Assembly (NCBI GenBank): GCA_028287395.1
Contig: JAQBPR010000003.1
Coordinates: forward strand, 62,001-126,000
Reading direction: 5' to 3'
DNA length: 64,000 bases
From: Bacilli bacterium
GTDB taxonomy: Bacteria > Bacillota > Bacilli > Paenibacillales > NBRC-103111
Shown: piece by piece, positions 14,228 to 62,659 of the stretch
Layout of the letters: every line of letters starts with the position of its first letter
Position numbering within the stretch: the first letter of the stretch is position 1
Position numbers and translations under genes: made by a program
The notes under the pieces: generated by a model
Database searches by the model: none
Seen by the model: only the letters and a program-made list of their open reading frames with translations
What the model was told of the DNA's origin: nothing

Positions 14228-14926
14228 TTAAGCTGTTGTTTGTTCGCCTTGATGTCCTTCAATAATTGCGTCTGCCATTTTAGCAGTCAACAATTTTACG
14301 GCACGGATTGCATCATCGTTACCCGGAATAACATAATCGATCTCATCCGGATCACAGTTGGTATCAACAATACCCACAATTGGGATTCCCAATTTACGCG
14401 CTTCTGCAACAGCGATGCGCTCTTTACGAGGATCAATGATGAATAATGCGCTTGGTAAGCCCTTCATGTTTTTAATTCCGCCCAAGAATTTCTCTAAACG
14501 ATCTTTTTCTTTACGAAGAATAATAACTTCCTTTTTCGGAAGCACTTCAAAAGTGCCATCGGATTCCCATTTTTCCAATTGATGCAAACGATCAATACGT
14601 TTTTGAATGGTTTGGAAATTCGTTAATGTACCACCTAACCAACGTTGGTTAATGTAATACATTCCACAGCGTTCTGCTTCTTCAGCTACTGAATCCTGTG
14701 CTTGCTTTTTCGTACCTACGAATAGAATAGTTCCATTCTCGGCGCCGATCGACTTCACAAAATTGTAAGCCTCATCCACTTTTTTAACTGTTTTTTGCAA
14801 ATCAATAATGTAAATCCCGTTTCTTTCGGTGAAGATGTAACGATCCATTTTAGGGTTCCAGCGACGCGTTTGGTGACCGAAGTGTACCCCGGCTTCCAAA
14901 AGCTGCTTCATGGAGATTACTGCCAT
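14228..14926 (-). CDS. rpsB: 30S ribosomal protein S2
   Basis: Small-subunit protein of 232 residues. N-terminal [20 protein letters not shown] and the later [20 protein letters not shown] and [16 protein letters not shown] are diagnostic. The start at 14926 is chosen because AGGAGG is 7 nt upstream; an ATG two codons earlier is too close. A sigma-A-like promoter and a leader of about 115 nt precede it. Confidence 0.98.
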
Positions 14927-15048
14927 CTTCATACCTCCTCATGTTTTGGTTTTTTTGTTTCCCTCCGCTAAATCGCACTTTCCAATAAGACTTTCAATGA
15001 AAGCACCCTTATCCGAATTGATTAGCGTGTGTGATAACACCGTCAATT

Positions 15049-15078
15049 ACTATATCATAAATAATGTTGGTGATGCAA
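15049..15078 (-). promoter_or_regulatory. Candidate sigma-A promoter of rpsB-tsf
   Basis: On the minus strand TTGCAT (15073-15078), an 18-nt spacer and TATAGT (15049-15054). Transcription would begin near 15042, leaving a leader of about 115 nt that includes a short CTTTC/GAAAG hairpin before the Shine-Dalgarno sequence. Confidence 0.45.
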
Positions 15079-15101
15079 GCTATAAATACAGAATAAGAAA
15101 T

Positions 15102-15135
15102 AAGAGATTCTCGTTTAATTGCACGATAATCCCTT
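15102..15135 (-). terminator. Terminator at the end of the fla/che operon
   Basis: Minus-strand 12-bp stem AAGGGATTATCG / CGAGAATCTCTT with one mismatch and one G-T pair, a 10-nt loop, then a T-rich but broken tract. It starts at the stop codon of the last operon gene and precedes the rpsB promoter. Confidence 0.6.
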
Positions 15136-15659
15136 TATTTTTTCACAGTTGTTATTTTATTAATAATTTCTTGAATACTGTCTTTCGGATTAAACGTGTA
15201 TGTACCGTAATGGATAATTCGGTCTAGTTTCAGCCGATTCAATGCACCCTCAAATGCCACACGATCCGTGATAACAGCCTTGCTTAAAAACAGATCAGCC
15301 ACTTGTGAAGAATCCATTCCTTCATTAATGACTACCGTCGTCATTATTGCATCCTTTGGGCTTGTTGCGGAAGCGGCAGGCGTAGATGGTTCAACTGTTT
15401 TACTGACAATAGGTGTCGATAGGGCAGGAGAACTGGGCGGATTTATTGATTCAACGGGTTTTACTGAAGCGACAGGTTCCGTTGTTGGTTTTACAATAGG
15501 AATTAAAGATGCTGATGGAGTTGGGCTTGGGCTTGCTTTCGTTGTATCGTTTGTTAGGTCTTTCCCCTTAATCACTGCAAAGTTCATTAATTGCAAAAGG
15601 CATGCCCCCAAGATCAGGCCTAATCCCAATCCATATAGGAATCCTTTATTTTTAAACAC
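15135..15659 (-). CDS. Membrane-anchored protein with MltG/YceG-like N-terminal subdomain
   Basis: 174 residues. One membrane helix (about residues 8-28) is followed by a Pro/Ser/Thr-rich linker of about 75 residues and a C-terminal domain of about 65 residues. That domain (VVINEGMDSSQVADLFLSKA ... HYGTYTFNPKDSIQEIINKI) resembles the LysM-like substrate-positioning subdomain of the endolytic transglycosylase MltG, but the catalytic domain is absent. A cell-wall-binding, non-enzymatic role is a guess. It starts at GTG with AGGAGG upstream, overlaps the previous gene by 8 nt, and is the last gene of the fla/che operon. Confidence 0.7.
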   Translation of the reverse strand: MFKNKGFLYGLGLGLILGACLLQLMNFAVIKGKDLTNDTTKASPSPTPSASLIPIVKPTTEPVASVKPVESINPPSSPALSTPIVSKTVEPSTPAASATSPKDAIMTTVVINEGMDSSQVADLFLSKAVITDRVAFEGALNRLKLDRIIHYGTYTFNPKDSIQEIINKITTVKK

Positions 15660-16179
15660 GATTTTGTTCCTCCTGATTCGCTAGTTGAATGATCAGTTGA
15701 ACTTCACCTTTATTTAAATTCAATTTTTTGGCGATATATTCAATTGATTTCCCCTGTTCATGCAATTTAAAAAGGTCTGCATAGCGTTGCTTCATTTGCA
15801 TCGGAGAAGAGTTTTCTTTTTTAACTACTTCTGTTTCTAATATTTCGGTTGAACGTTGAGGCTGATTTAATTTATTGAAAACAATACTTTTTATTTCCTG
15901 TGACAAATCATAATTTTGCTTTTCTAATTGATCTACCTTTGACATAATTCGGTTCATTTGCAAATCATGATCACTTTTAATTTGCGCTACGGAATGCAGA
16001 AGTTGGTTATTCTCTTCTTCAATCTCATTCGCAAAGTGCTCCATCGTTTCTTCTATTTCCTTGACCATATTCGTTTTTTCATTTGATGCAGACCTTGGCG
16101 CAAAAAAAGAAATAACTATGCATACAAGACCTAATAATACGATATACATCCACGGCTGATCCAATCCCAATGTTCTCAC
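15652..16179 (-). CDS. SwrB/DUF6115-like membrane protein
   Basis: 175 residues. An N-terminal membrane helix (about residues 10-28) is followed by a coiled coil (about 40-95) and a C-terminal helix-turn-helix-like segment (YADLFKLHEQGKSIEYIAKK and on). The layout and position between sigD and rpsB match B. subtilis SwrB (YlxL), which activates flagellar export assembly. Sequence similarity was not tested. It starts at GTG 16179; a TTG four codons later has an equally good ribosome binding site. Confidence 0.65.
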   Translation of the reverse strand: MRTLGLDQPWMYIVLLGLVCIVISFFAPRSASNEKTNMVKEIEETMEHFANEIEEENNQLLHSVAQIKSDHDLQMNRIMSKVDQLEKQNYDLSQEIKSIVFNKLNQPQRSTEILETEVVKKENSSPMQMKQRYADLFKLHEQGKSIEYIAKKLNLNKGEVQLIIQLANQEEQNRV

Positions 16180-16197
16180 CTTTTCACTTTGATCGAC

Positions 16198-16527
16198 TTA
16201 AAGCGACAGATCAATATGTCTTCCTTTAAAGGGATGTTCTAGGCTGACTTCCTCTTGCCTATGAGCCCCTATTACAGTTTTATCCTGCTGCTTTTTTGTT
16301 GATTTTAATCCTTTATTTTTCTCCTTTTGTTGTTCCTCGCGTATTCGATGGTTTGTAGTTTCATCTACTTTACTGCTTTTATGGCGTGCTGCTTCCGCAC
16401 TTTTTTCCGTATTACTAGCTATTAAGGATTGATCAATCACCGTTTTTTGCATAAGCTGATTTTGCTTATATCCTGTTTCATTGCTTTTTTGAACGGCAAT
16501 CTGCATATCAATCGTCTTAAAGCTCAT
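16198..16527 (-). CDS. Hypothetical soluble charged protein in the fla/che operon
   Basis: 109 residues, not recognised. It is hydrophilic and rich in Gln, Lys and Glu, with no signal or membrane segment. The middle (about residues 55-90) is highly charged and probably helical or disordered (EEQQKEKNKGLKSTKKQQDK). GGGGTGATTCC precedes the ATG. It is translated in the same direction between the FapA-like gene and the SwrB-like gene with short gaps, so it probably belongs to the flagellar regulon. Confidence 0.65.
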   Translation of the reverse strand: MSFKTIDMQIAVQKSNETGYKQNQLMQKTVIDQSLIASNTEKSAEAARHKSSKVDETTNHRIREEQQKEKNKGLKSTKKQQDKTVIGAHRQEEVSLEHPFKGRHIDLSL

Positions 16528-16571
16528 GGAATCACCCCATTTAAGCGTCCTAGGAACAAGCTTTTATCTTC

Positions 16572-17981
16572 TTATCGGGTTGCAGACATTGTAATATCAC
16601 CATCAAGCAATCTAAAAGATACTTTTGCTGTTGGATCCTTAATAAACTTAGTGTAACGTCCAATTACAATTTTTGTACCACCATACATCATGGCAGTAAC
16701 CTCAACTTTAGCTTTTTCCGTATCTTCCAATGATTTCTCGATTTCTAAAATCCGTTCCTTAATATGGCTTTGTTCATCAAATGATATTTTTTTAGAATTA
16801 GCTAATTTTATTTTCATAGCAACTTTTTCTGGAGTAAGTAAACCTGCAGCAGCCATTTGATCTAAAAGATTAAGTGCTTTATCTGTCTTCTCTAACGTTT
16901 CCATATGTATTTTTAATTGCCCACGTAAAGATAACAATTCGTTGCGCAATTCTGGTAGAACACCAACTTCAATATTCGTATTCGTTGCCATTATATTGCC
17001 TATTGTTCTTGCTAAAACCTTTTCACCTGCTTGAATAGTTCCGCCGACAATAAGTCCCTTCACCCCTTGGCAAATCACATTCTTGCCTGCACGTATCGTG
17101 GAATGCATGATACTTTGTGATACTAAGACATCTTCCCCAGCTTCAACAACTCCTTCTTGAATAAAGGATGTCTTTATATTTTTCCCCGCTTTTACAAGAC
17201 CTTTATTTTGTCCGATAATACCTGCACTAATTTCGATTGAACCGGCTGCATCCAATTCAGCACCTTCGACGCTTCCAATAATGCGAATATCACCTTCGGC
17301 TTTGATTTTAAATCCCGTTCTAACATTACCGCGAATAACAATAGTTCCCACAAAATCTATATTGCCTGTATTGTAATCCACATCCCCATTCACTTCAAAA
17401 ATTGGAAATACGTTTATTTTTTCACGGTCCGTCATAGCAATCATTCCGTCTATAGCTGCAAACAAAAATGTTTTTTCTGCATCCACTACTACATTTTTCC
17501 CAATTTTAAATCGGTCCTCTTTCCCCGCTTTGGCGAAAACTACTTCTCCAGTTACGGCTTTGCCATGCGTACCTTCTTTAGCAGGAATCCGTTCCGCGAT
17601 CAATTCACCTTTACGTACATTATTAATCGACGCAACCTCTTTATAATCAACTGTCCCATCTTCCATTTCCAAAGGTTTACTGCCTTGGTGTTTCATTTCA
17701 TACATATACTTAATGTATCCGTTTTCTCCATCAATCGGAGCATCGCCTGTTGCTATTATTGTTTTCGAAAGTAAAAACTCTTTCGGATTATTTGCAATTT
17801 TAGATAAAACATCGTAATGAATTCCATGTATAATCAGATTCTTTTTTAAGGATTCTTCTAGCTGCACTCTCGAACAAGAAAAAGTTTCATCACAATTCGT
17901 AAAATGAATCGACGCGGAAAGCTTATCATTAGCTACAGTCACATTCACATAAAAATCAATGGGTAATATTTGATCACTCAT
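16572..17981 (-). CDS. FapA-family (DUF342) protein
   Basis: 469 residues of the Flagellar Assembly Protein A family. An N-terminal domain leads into a repetitive beta-helix-like core (about residues 170-330) where short Gly-rich turns recur (GNVRTGFKIKAEGDIRIIGS, then GAELDAAGSIEISAGIIGQN). A helical segment (about 350-430) follows, then a short C-terminal strand domain. Some relatives affect flagellar placement or act as polymer-binding scaffolds, but the function in Bacillales is not established. It directly follows sigD in the operon. Confidence 0.85.
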   Translation of the reverse strand: MSDQILPIDFYVNVTVANDKLSASIHFTNCDETFSCSRVQLEESLKKNLIIHGIHYDVLSKIANNPKEFLLSKTIIATGDAPIDGENGYIKYMYEMKHQGSKPLEMEDGTVDYKEVASINNVRKGELIAERIPAKEGTHGKAVTGEVVFAKAGKEDRFKIGKNVVVDAEKTFLFAAIDGMIAMTDREKINVFPIFEVNGDVDYNTGNIDFVGTIVIRGNVRTGFKIKAEGDIRIIGSVEGAELDAAGSIEISAGIIGQNKGLVKAGKNIKTSFIQEGVVEAGEDVLVSQSIMHSTIRAGKNVICQGVKGLIVGGTIQAGEKVLARTIGNIMATNTNIEVGVLPELRNELLSLRGQLKIHMETLEKTDKALNLLDQMAAAGLLTPEKVAMKIKLANSKKISFDEQSHIKERILEIEKSLEDTEKAKVEVTAMMYGGTKIVIGRYTKFIKDPTAKVSFRLLDGDITMSATR

Positions 17982-18002
17982 TTTAATTCACTCTCCTTTC
18001 AC

Positions 18003-18791
18003 TTACTGCTCATGAAATAGCTGCACTTTAAATCTATTTAACGATCCTCGTAATCTTAGGACTGCTTTGGAATGCAATTGAGAAATGCGTGAAGGCGATA
18101 AAGACATAACCTCGGCTATTTCACTTAAAGAAAGCTCTTCAAAATAGAAAAGAGATACAACAATTCGTTCTTTTTCTGTTAACCGTTCAATGGCTTTCGC
18201 TAACGTTTCTTTTAGAAAAAACTCATTTACTTTATACTCCGGATTTTTTGCTTTTTCATCTATAAGAAGTGACAATCTGGTTTCTGATTCTTCTTCTCGA
18301 ATGGGCTCATCAACCGAGCATATCGTTGTAATAGCAACATCTTGCAGCATTTGTTGAAATTCACTTTGTGTAATTTGCAGGTAAGCGCTGATCTCAGCAT
18401 CCGTAACAGATCGTAAATGCTGTTGTTCTAATTTTTGATAAGCATCTTCAATTTTTTTGGCTTTTTCGCGAACGGAACGAGGAACCCAATCCCCTTGTCG
18501 AAGACCGTCGATTATTGCACCACGAATTCTCCACGATGCATAGGTTTCAAACTGTAAACCTCTTTGATGATCAAATTTTTCTATAGCATCTATTAAACCC
18601 ATTATACCATAACTTACTAGATCCTCTTTAAAAATATTTTTCGGAAGACCAATTGCTAATCGATTTGAAACAAAATCTACTAAAGGAATATATTGCTCAA
18701 TCAAGGTCTTTTTGGCCTCAACCAATCCTTCATCCTTCCACTGTTTCCACAAATCCATATTGGATAAATGAGATTGCTTTGGAGTAATCAT
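18003..18791 (-). CDS. sigD: RNA polymerase sigma-D (FliA/WhiG family)
   Basis: Motility sigma factor for late flagellar, chemotaxis and autolysin genes; 262 residues. Region 2 (DLVSYGIMGLIDAIEKFDHQ, then ETYASWRIRGAIIDGLRQGD), region 3 and region 4 (LTEKERIVVSLFYFEELSLS, then EIAEVMSLSPSRISQLHSKA) are all complete. Lying late in the fla/che operon, as in B. subtilis, its level depends on how far transcription runs. The anti-sigma factor FlgM is not in this window. Confidence 0.96.
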   Translation of the reverse strand: MITPKQSHLSNMDLWKQWKDEGLVEAKKTLIEQYIPLVDFVSNRLAIGLPKNIFKEDLVSYGIMGLIDAIEKFDHQRGLQFETYASWRIRGAIIDGLRQGDWVPRSVREKAKKIEDAYQKLEQQHLRSVTDAEISAYLQITQSEFQQMLQDVAITTICSVDEPIREEESETRLSLLIDEKAKNPEYKVNEFFLKETLAKAIERLTEKERIVVSLFYFEELSLSEIAEVMSLSPSRISQLHSKAVLRLRGSLNRFKVQLFHEQ

Positions 18792-18806
18792 GAACGATCA
18801 CCGTCC

Positions 18807-19196
18807 TTAATCTTCTGACATATGGCGAAGTGCTTTAACCATTTCTTCTGGATCCATATTATGCTTGGATACTAATTTGGGCGGATTCAGCGGTGCAAAG
18901 GATGGTTCATCTGCAGCAGTCTCGCTATCAGTTCGCATAAGTTGATGAATTTCAATAGATTCATCAGGTGTAACAAAATCAATTTTTTTACCCATATCAT
19001 TTTCTATAATAGAGGAAGGGAAAATAATCGTTCCCATAATCCATCTAAATAAAAATATAATAAAGAATAAGATTAATCCACTCAAAAAACTTCTCACAAG
19101 CGCTGTCGAAAATACATTATTCGCAAAAGATAGCATAAAAGTAAAAATAAAACTAAATCCACCTATCACTATATTCCAGCGAATCGTTCCAATCAT
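18807..19196 (-). CDS. Hypothetical two-helix membrane protein between cheD and sigD
   Basis: 129 residues, not recognised. Two hydrophobic segments (about residues 8-24 and 31-56) form a membrane hairpin, followed by a soluble C-terminal tail of about 70 residues ending in an acidic/Met-rich helix (NMDPEEMVKALRHMSED). It starts 3 nt after the cheD stop, with AAGGAA upstream, and ends just before the sigD ribosome binding site. Co-transcription suggests a role in motility or its regulation, but nothing in the sequence gives a mechanism. Confidence 0.7.
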   Translation of the reverse strand: MIGTIRWNIVIGGFSFIFTFMLSFANNVFSTALVRSFLSGLILFFIIFLFRWIMGTIIFPSSIIENDMGKKIDFVTPDESIEIHQLMRTDSETAADEPSFAPLNPPKLVSKHNMDPEEMVKALRHMSED

Positions 19197-19199
19197 CGG

Positions 19200-19697
19200 T
19201 TACATTTCCTTAATTCCATTTTGAACGCTCCGAATAAGAAGAATCCCTGTTTCGCAGTTAAATTCAATTGTTCTACCATAACTACCACCCGTATCTTCAG
19301 CTTTTAATGGTATTGCAAATTTTTGTAGCATTCCTTTGCAGGATTCTGTATTTCTCGGACCGATTCTCATCGTATCGCTTTGACCTGTTGAAAAAGCAAA
19401 CATCTGAGCTCCTCCGGCCATTTTAGCTTCCATTCTCTGTAGGGAAGCGCCCAAAGCTTTCATTTTATCAATCATATCCGGAATCGCTGTATCTGCATAT
19501 TTCGCAATATTAAGCGTCCCTTCCTTAGCAATTTCTGAAGACGGAAGCATTACATGAGCCATACCTGCTATCTTGGTTATTGGATCATACAATGTAACGC
19601 CTACACAAGAACCTAATCCTGTTGTTTTCAATATCCCCTTTTTATGAACAACATTCAGATCAGCCATAGCAACTTTAATGAAATTTTCTTGAATCAT
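19200..19697 (-). CDS. cheD: Chemoreceptor glutamine deamidase CheD
   Basis: Deamidates chemoreceptor Gln residues and interacts with CheC; 165 residues. The catalytic Cys-His-Thr region is visible (TTGLGSCVGVTLYDP, then GMAHVMLPSS), followed by the AKMAGGAQMF segment of the family. The ATG overlaps the cheC stop by 4 nt, which couples the two partners translationally. Confidence 0.96.
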   Translation of the reverse strand: MIQENFIKVAMADLNVVHKKGILKTTGLGSCVGVTLYDPITKIAGMAHVMLPSSEIAKEGTLNIAKYADTAIPDMIDKMKALGASLQRMEAKMAGGAQMFAFSTGQSDTMRIGPRNTESCKGMLQKFAIPLKAEDTGGSYGRTIEFNCETGILLIRSVQNGIKEM

Positions 19698-20314
19698 TGT
19701 GGGGATACTCCTAAAGCTGAAAATATTTTCTGGAAAGACTCTGGATCCGGGATCAAAAAGAAATGTCCTTCAATTTCATCCACACCATCGAGAAATTTGG
19801 TATCAATAAAGAGCGCTTGATCTCCCATTTCTCCGAATTGAAGTAATCCATAGCTTAAAATAGCACCTGCCATATCAATAGCTAATGATGGAACAGTTGG
19901 TGTCATAGATAAGTTTGTAAAATCAGCTAATGAAGTTAAATATGATCCAGCGAGAATATTTCCAATTTCATTTAATGCAGATATTTCCATTTCCGAATAT
20001 TGACCTTCATTTTGAACATCGATACCGACTAAGTTTTTCAGCATTTTTTTTGCGGATTCTTGAGATAATATAAAAAATATGTTTCCAGGTGTTTCTCCTT
20101 CGACCCTAAGAAAGATAGCAATGACGACTTGTTCTGAACCACCTACACTATTCGAAATTTCTTCAAAAGGAACCATTCTCACAGTCGGTACAAGCATATC
20201 CACAGGCTTATTCAGAAGTCTCGATAAAGCGGTTGCGGCATGTCCAGCACCAATATTACCCACTTCCTTAAGAACGTCCATGTGAAAATCAGCAAATGGT
20301 TTCATTTCACTCAC
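19694..20314 (-). CDS. cheC: CheY-P phosphatase CheC
   Basis: Removes phosphate from CheY-P and binds CheD; 206 residues. The two phosphatase signature helices are present: LKEVGNIGAGHAATALSRLL near residue 15 and ISALNEIGNILAGSYLTSLA near residue 110, each with the paired acidic and Asn residues. It starts at GTG with GAGGAG upstream, 5 nt after cheW. Confidence 0.96.
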   Translation of the reverse strand: MSEMKPFADFHMDVLKEVGNIGAGHAATALSRLLNKPVDMLVPTVRMVPFEEISNSVGGSEQVVIAIFLRVEGETPGNIFFILSQESAKKMLKNLVGIDVQNEGQYSEMEISALNEIGNILAGSYLTSLADFTNLSMTPTVPSLAIDMAGAILSYGLLQFGEMGDQALFIDTKFLDGVDEIEGHFFLIPDPESFQKIFSALGVSPQ

Positions 20315-61795: not shown

Positions 61796-62659
61796 TTATT
61801 GTGGCGCTTCCAAGCTCACGCGTCCCATCTTACCCGCACGCAGTTCTCTTAAAATTATCATCGATACCTTATCTAAATCGATTCGGCCACCGCTAAGCAC
61901 ACATCCTCTTTTTCGGCCAATGGTTTCCATTACTTTCACAACTTCGTTCGGATCGGATAAATCCGTAGGAATCGATTCAATAGCAAACCTTTCCGTCAAA
62001 TAATCCGCATAGTGCTCCGACAAATAACGAATGACAAAAAAAGCGATTTCATCTGCGTGGAGCAATTCTTCCTTAATCGCACCAGTAGCCGCCAAGCGGA
62101 GACCCACATTCTGATCTTCAAATTTCGGCCATAAAATGCCTGGGGTATCCAATAATTCCATTTCTGTGCCCATCTTAATCCATTGCTGTCCTTTAGTTAC
62201 ACCAGGACGGTCTCCTGTTGCTGCAATCTTCTTGCCTGCTAAACGGTTAATCAATGTCGACTTACCCACGTTCGGTATGCCAACGATTAAAGCTCTTACA
62301 GACCTTGGAATGATCCCTTTACGGATTTGCTGTTCGATTTTATGCTGAACCAAAACTTTGCAGCGAGGTACAATTTCGCGAATTTGATTGCCGGAAACAG
62401 CATCAATAGGCAGAGCATCGAGCTCGGATTCTTTGAAATAAGCCACCCATGCAGCCGTTACAATTGGATCTGCTAAATCAGCTTTGTTCAACAAAACTAA
62501 ACGCGGTTTCCCCTGCAAAATTTCGTCAATCATCGGATTACGGCTGGATAAAGGAATCCGCGCATCCAGCAATTCGATCACGACATCAATCAGCTTCAGC
62601 TTCTCTTGAATTTGTCGCCGCGCCTTGGTCATATGGCCAGGAAACCAATTAATTGTCAT
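61796..62659 (-). CDS. rbgA: Ribosome biogenesis GTPase RbgA (YlqF)
   Basis: Needed for a late step of 50S subunit assembly; 287 residues. The GTPase motifs are circularly permuted: G4 (LLNKADLAD near residue 58) comes before G1 ([20 protein letters not shown] near residue 125) and G3 (DTPGILWPK). The N-terminal [13 protein letters not shown] is diagnostic. Lies between lepB and rnhB. Confidence 0.97.

Follow-up and report, generated by a model that had tools for sequence, protein, structure and literature searches.

Rod passage through the thick Gram-positive cell wall is an open question. In Bacillus subtilis, mutation of swrB raises basal-body mobility, as in early rod mutants, and the same 2025 study puts forward the idea that the rod searches the wall for pores (PMC12153297; here and below, cited papers are drawn on in part). 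SwrB is stated to be conserved in Bacillus only (PMC4526659), and FipA of gamma-proteobacteria, which recruits FlhF via G110 and L129 and whose invariant residues G110, E126, and L129 are spaced by 16 and 3, is stated to lack homologues in peritrichous Bacillus (PMC11620751). SweD and SweC are required for the activity of CwlO and are essential cofactors of the FtsEX-CwlO wall hydrolase (PMC6705773). Here we compare these systems with a 64,000-nucleotide (nt) window, meaning the whole stretch analyzed (positions 62,001 to 126,000 of contig JAQBPR010000003.1, assembly GCA_028287395.1, a Bacilli bacterium of the Paenibacillales lineage NBRC-103111), in which an swrB-like gene and an mltG-like gene lie downstream of sigD at the end of the fla/che operon. 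We propose, with a probability of roughly 0.5, that these two genes encode a flagellar SweDC/FipA-type complex coupling basal-body maturation to peptidoglycan during rod passage. The basis for this proposal is homology and gene linkage, from which the mechanism is inferred.

The two genes travel together. A profile of the MltG-like protein was run against 299 genomes of the phylum; it recovered a short open reading frame (ORF) at E ≤ 1.6e-6 in 67 genomes, and all 67 loci were inspected. An SwrB/SweD-like gene lies directly upstream of 65 of the 67, the unpaired exceptions being L077 (genome G300) and L179 (G129). Across 116 unique-genome loci, comprising 20 from the family, 67 from the phylum scan, and 29 from a class-level scan in which only the best 30 loci and 5 chosen ones were inspected, the genes are paired at 114 (113 by script, plus L048, whose overlap is above the script's limit and whose pair was seen when the family loci were read), with −4 and −8 nt as the commonest spacings. 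These 116 remained from 122 after removal of five genome repeats (L053, L190, L188, L185, L184) and of L214, an SwrB ORF that a profile matched spuriously. The next gene after the pair is rpsB at 63 of the 116 loci and a FlgF/FlgG-type rod gene at 19, with no listed neighbor at the other 34, often on a short locus. All nine rod genes tested against NCBIfam belong to the FlgEFG subfamily, with FlgF or FlgG as the best match. Because the pairing persists while the downstream neighbors vary, the steady companion of the mltG-like gene is the swrB-like gene and not rpsB. A housekeeping explanation, which assigns the mltG-like gene to rpsB or general wall metabolism and makes its place beside swrB incidental, would account for the frequency of rpsB as next gene and for the MltG-type domain. 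It is very improbable, since the mltG-like gene stays with the swrB-like gene both in unlinked pairs and where rod genes replace rpsB and has gone from the flagella-less genome G001; rpsB linkage as the cause of its position was ruled out by loci at which it follows the swrB-like gene and rpsB is absent.

Two further arrangements of MltG-like genes were recorded. Locus L179 (4025-4654) of G129, an FlhA-negative genome, encodes a 209-amino-acid (aa) protein with two LysM-like MltG-type repeats (recognized by eye) and no SwrB-like partner. Second MltG/SweC-like proteins of 279 to 297 aa, all of one family, stand beside the flagellar pair in G508, G541, G552, G573, G519, G530, and G486.

Bacillus-like genomes carry their MltG-like hit elsewhere, beside pst/phoU genes and behind a 115- to 129-aa protein with a transmembrane (TM) segment, a coiled coil, and a helix-turn-helix (HTH) domain; a named scan gave 32 Bacillus-type loci. 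The upstream protein of Bacillus spizizenii is 117 aa long, lies beside pst genes, and carries D104 and V105, the residues altered in SweD (PMC6705773), and on these three grounds the unlinked pair was identified as SweDC. In hhalign comparisons the MltG-like profile matched SweC at 99.8% over its full length (151 columns), and the SwrB-like profile matched SweD at 97.8% over the head only; SigD, used as an HTH control, gave 9.4% and 5.6%, and the cross-comparisons 39.8% and 15.7%. By these profile comparisons, both proteins of the flagellar pair are homologous to Bacillus SweD-SweC. Pfam YceG is matched by all 16 SweC-type proteins, and at the FipA positions all 16 SweD proteins have the G, while the E159 position is acidic (D or E) in 14 of 16 and Q in the other 2. 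A tree built from both proteins places 19 of 20 unlinked pairs in one clade (support, 1.0) with 2 label changes compared to 18.6 after shuffling, although these pairs are also taxonomically related. With midpoint rooting this tree has flagellar linkage at its root, but the root is not settled by the C-protein tree taken by itself; a direction from the flagellar pair to SweDC is suggested only. MltG, SwrB, and flagella go unmentioned in the main text of the SweDC paper (PMC6705773), and PMC12090709 merely cites that paper.

The upstream protein of the pair matches DUF6115 at 2.6e-8 (34.8 bits, cutoff 27), which upholds the SwrB-like identity given in a preliminary description of this locus. DUF6115 is matched by all 75 SwrB-like relatives, Bacillus SwrB included, and DUF2802 by 66 of the 75 at E ≤ 0.1 (best, 3e-10). 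In a structure model (75 sequences; mean predicted local distance difference test score [pLDDT], 88), a TM helix is followed by a helix of 76 residues, and the C terminus forms a compact HTH-like head. In that head the equivalents of G143, E159, and L162 are kept in 74, 75, and 72 of the 75 relatives, respectively. Because of the DUF2802 match and the identical G/E/L spacing, we read the head as FipA/DUF2802 type, and on these sequences, as compared with the Pfam model and the residue spacing of FipA, both published limits, the absence of FipA from Bacillus and the confinement of SwrB to Bacillus, look too narrow. DNA binding was considered for the head and rejected: Foldseek returned generic HTH hits, none at E ≤ 0.001, and chromatin immunoprecipitation sequencing of SweD is reported without sites (PMC6705773).

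The DUF2802 match and the G/E/L spacing would also suit a landmark of the FipA/HubP type. On this view FlhF would be brought in by the SwrB-like head, with the LysM-like partner tying it to old or new wall; the pair would set flagellar place and number and involve no hydrolase. FlhF recruitment by FipA, the position of both genes after flhF-flhG-sigD, and the periplasmic LysM-like domain of HubP/FimV (PMC12918733) also speak for a landmark. Such a role is nonetheless unlikely, given the stated absence of FipA homologues from peritrichous Bacillus, a FipA likeness that comes from a Pfam model and residue spacing rather than from direct alignment to a FipA sequence, and the behavior of the B. 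subtilis flhF mutation, which does not mimic the swrB mutation in basal-body mobility (PMC12153297).

The second protein of the pair was described preliminarily as an MltG-type subdomain with no catalytic domain, and Pfam, an AlphaFold 2 (AF2) model, the sequence profile, and Foldseek agree on this. Pfam YceG is matched at profile positions 1 to 63 of 275, and no complete YceG domain with the catalytic Glu is present in the 174 aa of the protein; the window's genome encodes its true, full-length MltG elsewhere. In the AF2 model (77 sequences), a disordered linker joins the Gly-rich TM helix to a single small domain, which has a pLDDT of about 95 to 97. This LysM-like domain superposes on Listeria MltG 4IIW (Foldseek root mean square deviation, 1.0 Å over 67 columns) and also on MltG 8YOA, and the sequence profile finds 4IIW at 2.8e-13 and 8YOA at 1.4e-5; its match to FlgM (1rp3) is weak (E = 0.0086). 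Counts by the positive-inside rule favor an outside C terminus, that is, a LysM-like domain outside the membrane, in 62 of 77 flagellar MltG-like and 15 of 16 SweC-type proteins. For the SweC-type proteins, this charge bias (15 of 16 more positive before the TM segment) is at odds with the published cytosolic position of the LysM-like domain.

Both genes are tied to flagella. SwrB-like proteins were found in 135 of 246 FlhA-positive and 0 of 53 FlhA-negative genomes (Fisher p = 2e-16, phylogeny ignored), and short MltG-like proteins in 66 of 246 and 1 of 53 (Fisher test, phylogeny again ignored). Within the family, FapA is present in 103 of 104 genomes, the exception being G001 (2.4 Mb, 99% complete), which is flagella-less; it lacks FlhA and the short MltG-like copy and retains FtsX and a full-length MltG. 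Unlinked pairs include L159 (3312-4234, in G227) beside a cwlD-like gene, L223, L225, and L227 in one family, and L224 in the FlhA-negative genome G472. Since such pairs occur in other contexts, one of them in an FlhA-negative genome, some pairs work without flagella.

That the pair is simply the general SweDC of these species, serving FtsEX and an elongation hydrolase and merely placed in the flagellar operon, would fit the homology to SweDC, the unlinked pair kept by G472, and the window's genome itself, which has FtsX and a single short MltG-like copy. We regard this as quite unlikely. FtsX was found in 55 of 58 chosen genomes, with or without the pair; it is present in all 19 FlhA-negative genomes checked (20 were listed, and G128 was left out because its contig is flagellar), among which a listed short hit occurs only in G129, as the unpaired tandem-domain protein, and G001 lost the pair and kept FtsX.

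In the proposed flagellar complex, the SwrB-like and MltG-like proteins would pair via their TM segments, an arrangement already put forward for SweD-SweC. On the cytoplasmic side, the former would act with its coiled coil and HTH-like head on the nascent basal body and the FlhF/export machinery, as FipA and SwrB do, and the LysM-like head of the latter would bind glycan strands or a wall-enzyme complex. Wherever a basal body rests on suitable peptidoglycan, the pair would then give the go-ahead for rod export or for opening the wall locally, and in this way link the maturation of the basal body to the passage of its rod through the thick wall. Its place directly before FlgF/FlgG-type rod genes at 19 loci fits a checkpoint on rod passage. 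On this reading SwrB stays in the operon of Bacillus-like genomes, and the related pair elsewhere (SweDC) serves FtsEX-CwlO. The preliminary description had the MltG-like protein localize to or sense peptidoglycan where flagella penetrate the wall. A wall-related flagellar role is still the best reading, but with the unit homologous to SweD-SweC, wall-hydrolase control is as likely as passive localization.

Several observations weigh against this proposal. The YceG (E = 1.1e-4) and DUF2802 (24.1 bits against 33.5) matches of the window's proteins fall below the Pfam cutoffs, and SweD has no conserved L at the L position of FipA. The FipA E126A substitution left FlhF binding unaffected (PMC11620751), and a protease assay placed the LysM-like domain of SweC in the cytosol (PMC6705773). 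In B. subtilis, basal bodies did not become more mobile when flhF was mutated (PMC12153297), which disfavors FlhF as the only route. The association with FlhA takes no account of shared ancestry, and at the thresholds used 111 of 246 FlhA-positive genomes have no SwrB-like hit and 180 of 246 no short MltG-like hit; the pair may not be universal, or the profiles may miss copies, as these absences rest on profile sensitivity.

A wider and more tentative idea is that SwrB, FipA, and SweD may form one membrane-adaptor superfamily, usually partnered in Bacillota by an MltG relative that has no catalytic part. The pair would then be an ancestral flagellar wall checkpoint, of which FtsEX-CwlO later took over a duplicate for cell elongation. 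Titles and abstract openings retrieved in a literature search, whose scope excluded most subscription papers, contained no printed link among the three. If the idea is true, proteins so far described apart become connected and an origin for SweDC is suggested; for rod passage, the flagellar pair supplies named genes and residues to test.

The pair lies in a longer conserved gene set (Table 1). All four genes that the preliminary description placed downstream of sigD are minus-strand ORFs at those positions, directly after sigD and separated by short gaps or an overlap, and the FapA-like identity holds (Pfam FapA_N, 1.7e-40; FapA, 6.7e-73). Set and position thus stand, but the last two genes belong together as one conserved unit and are not independent extras. 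As a whole, the interpretation given there is partly supported. The gaps along cheD-flgV-sigD-fapA-p109-swrB-like-mltG-like are 3, 15, 21, 44, 18, and −8 nt, the last being an 8-nt overlap of the mltG-like with the swrB-like gene. In 14850-20000 a consensus scan gave no terminator on the minus strand, and promoter and terminator scans gave no excess over shuffled sequence. The order cheD-flgV-sigD-fapA-p109-swrB-like-mltG-like-rpsB recurs at 20 of 20 family loci, drawn from 20 of the 22 genera (p109 was undetected in L045, and the contig of L037 ends before rpsB). The arrangement is therefore not due to chance, and the gene set closes a conserved sigma-28 submodule.

Table 1. Coordinates of features in the sigD-rpsB stretch of the window
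Feature	Coordinates	Strand	Details
rpsB	14228-14932	-	next gene, 202 nt beyond the MltG-like gene
MltG-like / SweC-type protein, 174 aa	15135..15659	-	GTG start; Gly-rich N-terminal TM (residues 6-30), disordered linker, C-terminal LysM-like MltG subdomain
LysM-like (YceG/MltG N-terminal) subdomain, residues 107-171 of the MltG-like protein	15147..15341	-	Pfam YceG 1-63/275; AF2; Foldseek
SwrB-like protein (DUF6115), 175 aa	15652..16179	-	TM (residues 9-26), helix 29-104, linker, HTH-like head 129-174
HTH-like / DUF2802 head of the SwrB-like protein	15658..15795	-	G143, E159, L162; FipA spacing 16 and 3
p109, charged small protein, 109 aa	16198..16527	-	conserved N-terminal block and C-terminal HPYKGxxID motif; no family match
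FapA, 469 aa	16572..17981	-	FapA_N and beta-solenoid domain
sigD (sigma-28, FliA/WhiG family)	18003..18791	-	family match
FlgV-like (type 1) membrane protein, 129 aa	18807..19196	-	two hydrophobic segments, RS in the second, polar tail with conserved C-terminal peptide

The gene before sigD is likely annotated as hypothetical, and its product matches no Pfam or NCBIfam family. Type 1 FlgV is described by its membrane topology and tail and by having sigma-28, FapA, and a "TM + HTH" protein as neighbors (PMC11607428). The 129-aa protein has the corresponding features, with two TM segments, an Arg in the second, a polar tail ending in a conserved peptide, and an adjoining sigma-28 gene; it looks like a type 1 FlgV, judged from an alignment read by eye and from hydropathy against the published description rather than against a published FlgV profile.

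Relatives of p109 occur in 65 of the 299 phylum genomes, 63 of them among the 246 with FlhA and 2 among the 53 without; both of the latter (L181, L182) have flagellar contigs that end just past p109, and these genomes are probably incomplete assemblies. The window's p109 has no Pfam match. The Pfam YjfB motility model (PF14070) is missing from the 18 families that 20 p109 proteins hit between them at E ≤ 10, and p109 as YjfB was rejected, as was a relationship to the SwrB-like or MltG-like family (hhalign, 0.1%). In L050 the C-terminal motif of p109 is replaced, perhaps through a frameshift. At least five more FapA-like matches, within longer open frames (550 to 695 aa), lie outside the flagellar operon in the window's genome, on contigs C28, C148, C107, C204, and C218.

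Among described systems, the sigma28-FapA-YjfB-"TM + HTH" submodule (PMC11607428) resembles this locus in bringing together a FlgV-like protein, sigma-28, FapA, and a TM + HTH protein; it differs in that the published parts used here name no MltG-like gene and in that p109 is unlike YjfB. The endolytic transglycosylase MltG/YceG shares a TM segment followed by the LysM-like subdomain (4IIW, 8YOA), from which the MltG-like protein differs in having no catalytic domain. AgmT of Myxococcus, an MltG-family protein, is a precedent for linking a motility machine to peptidoglycan, but is reported to link the machine with the wall only when its catalytic residue is intact. Bacillus SwrB occupies the same locus after sigD and has a TM segment, an acidic/coiled region, and the same HTH-like head with DUF6115, a model that also matches in B. 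subtilis; its operon differs in lacking the MltG-like partner at all 14 loci with a readable sigD-rpsB stretch. These came from 15 flagellar loci of genomes with an unlinked MltG-like copy (L230 does not cover the region, and for G423 the unlinked copy is a profile hit only), and the sigD-swrB-rpsB order of Bacillus-like genomes (L212-L219, L229) bears out the earlier remark, made for B. subtilis, that SwrB stands alone at this place. Gamma-proteobacterial FipA has a TM segment, a coiled coil, and a DUF2802 head with the same residue spacing, and its gene, like the swrB-like gene, follows an flhF-flhG-sigma28 operon; FipA differs in acting with FlhF at the cell poles, and its likeness is that of a Pfam model and residue spacing, not of FipA sequences. 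SweD-SweC (YqzD-YqzC) of B. subtilis differs in having its own locus beside pst genes, outside the flagellar operon, a shorter SweD, and FtsEX-CwlO as partner, and it shares with the flagellar pair two adjacent genes in the same order, the first encoding a TM + coiled coil + HTH protein and the second a TM + LysM-like protein.

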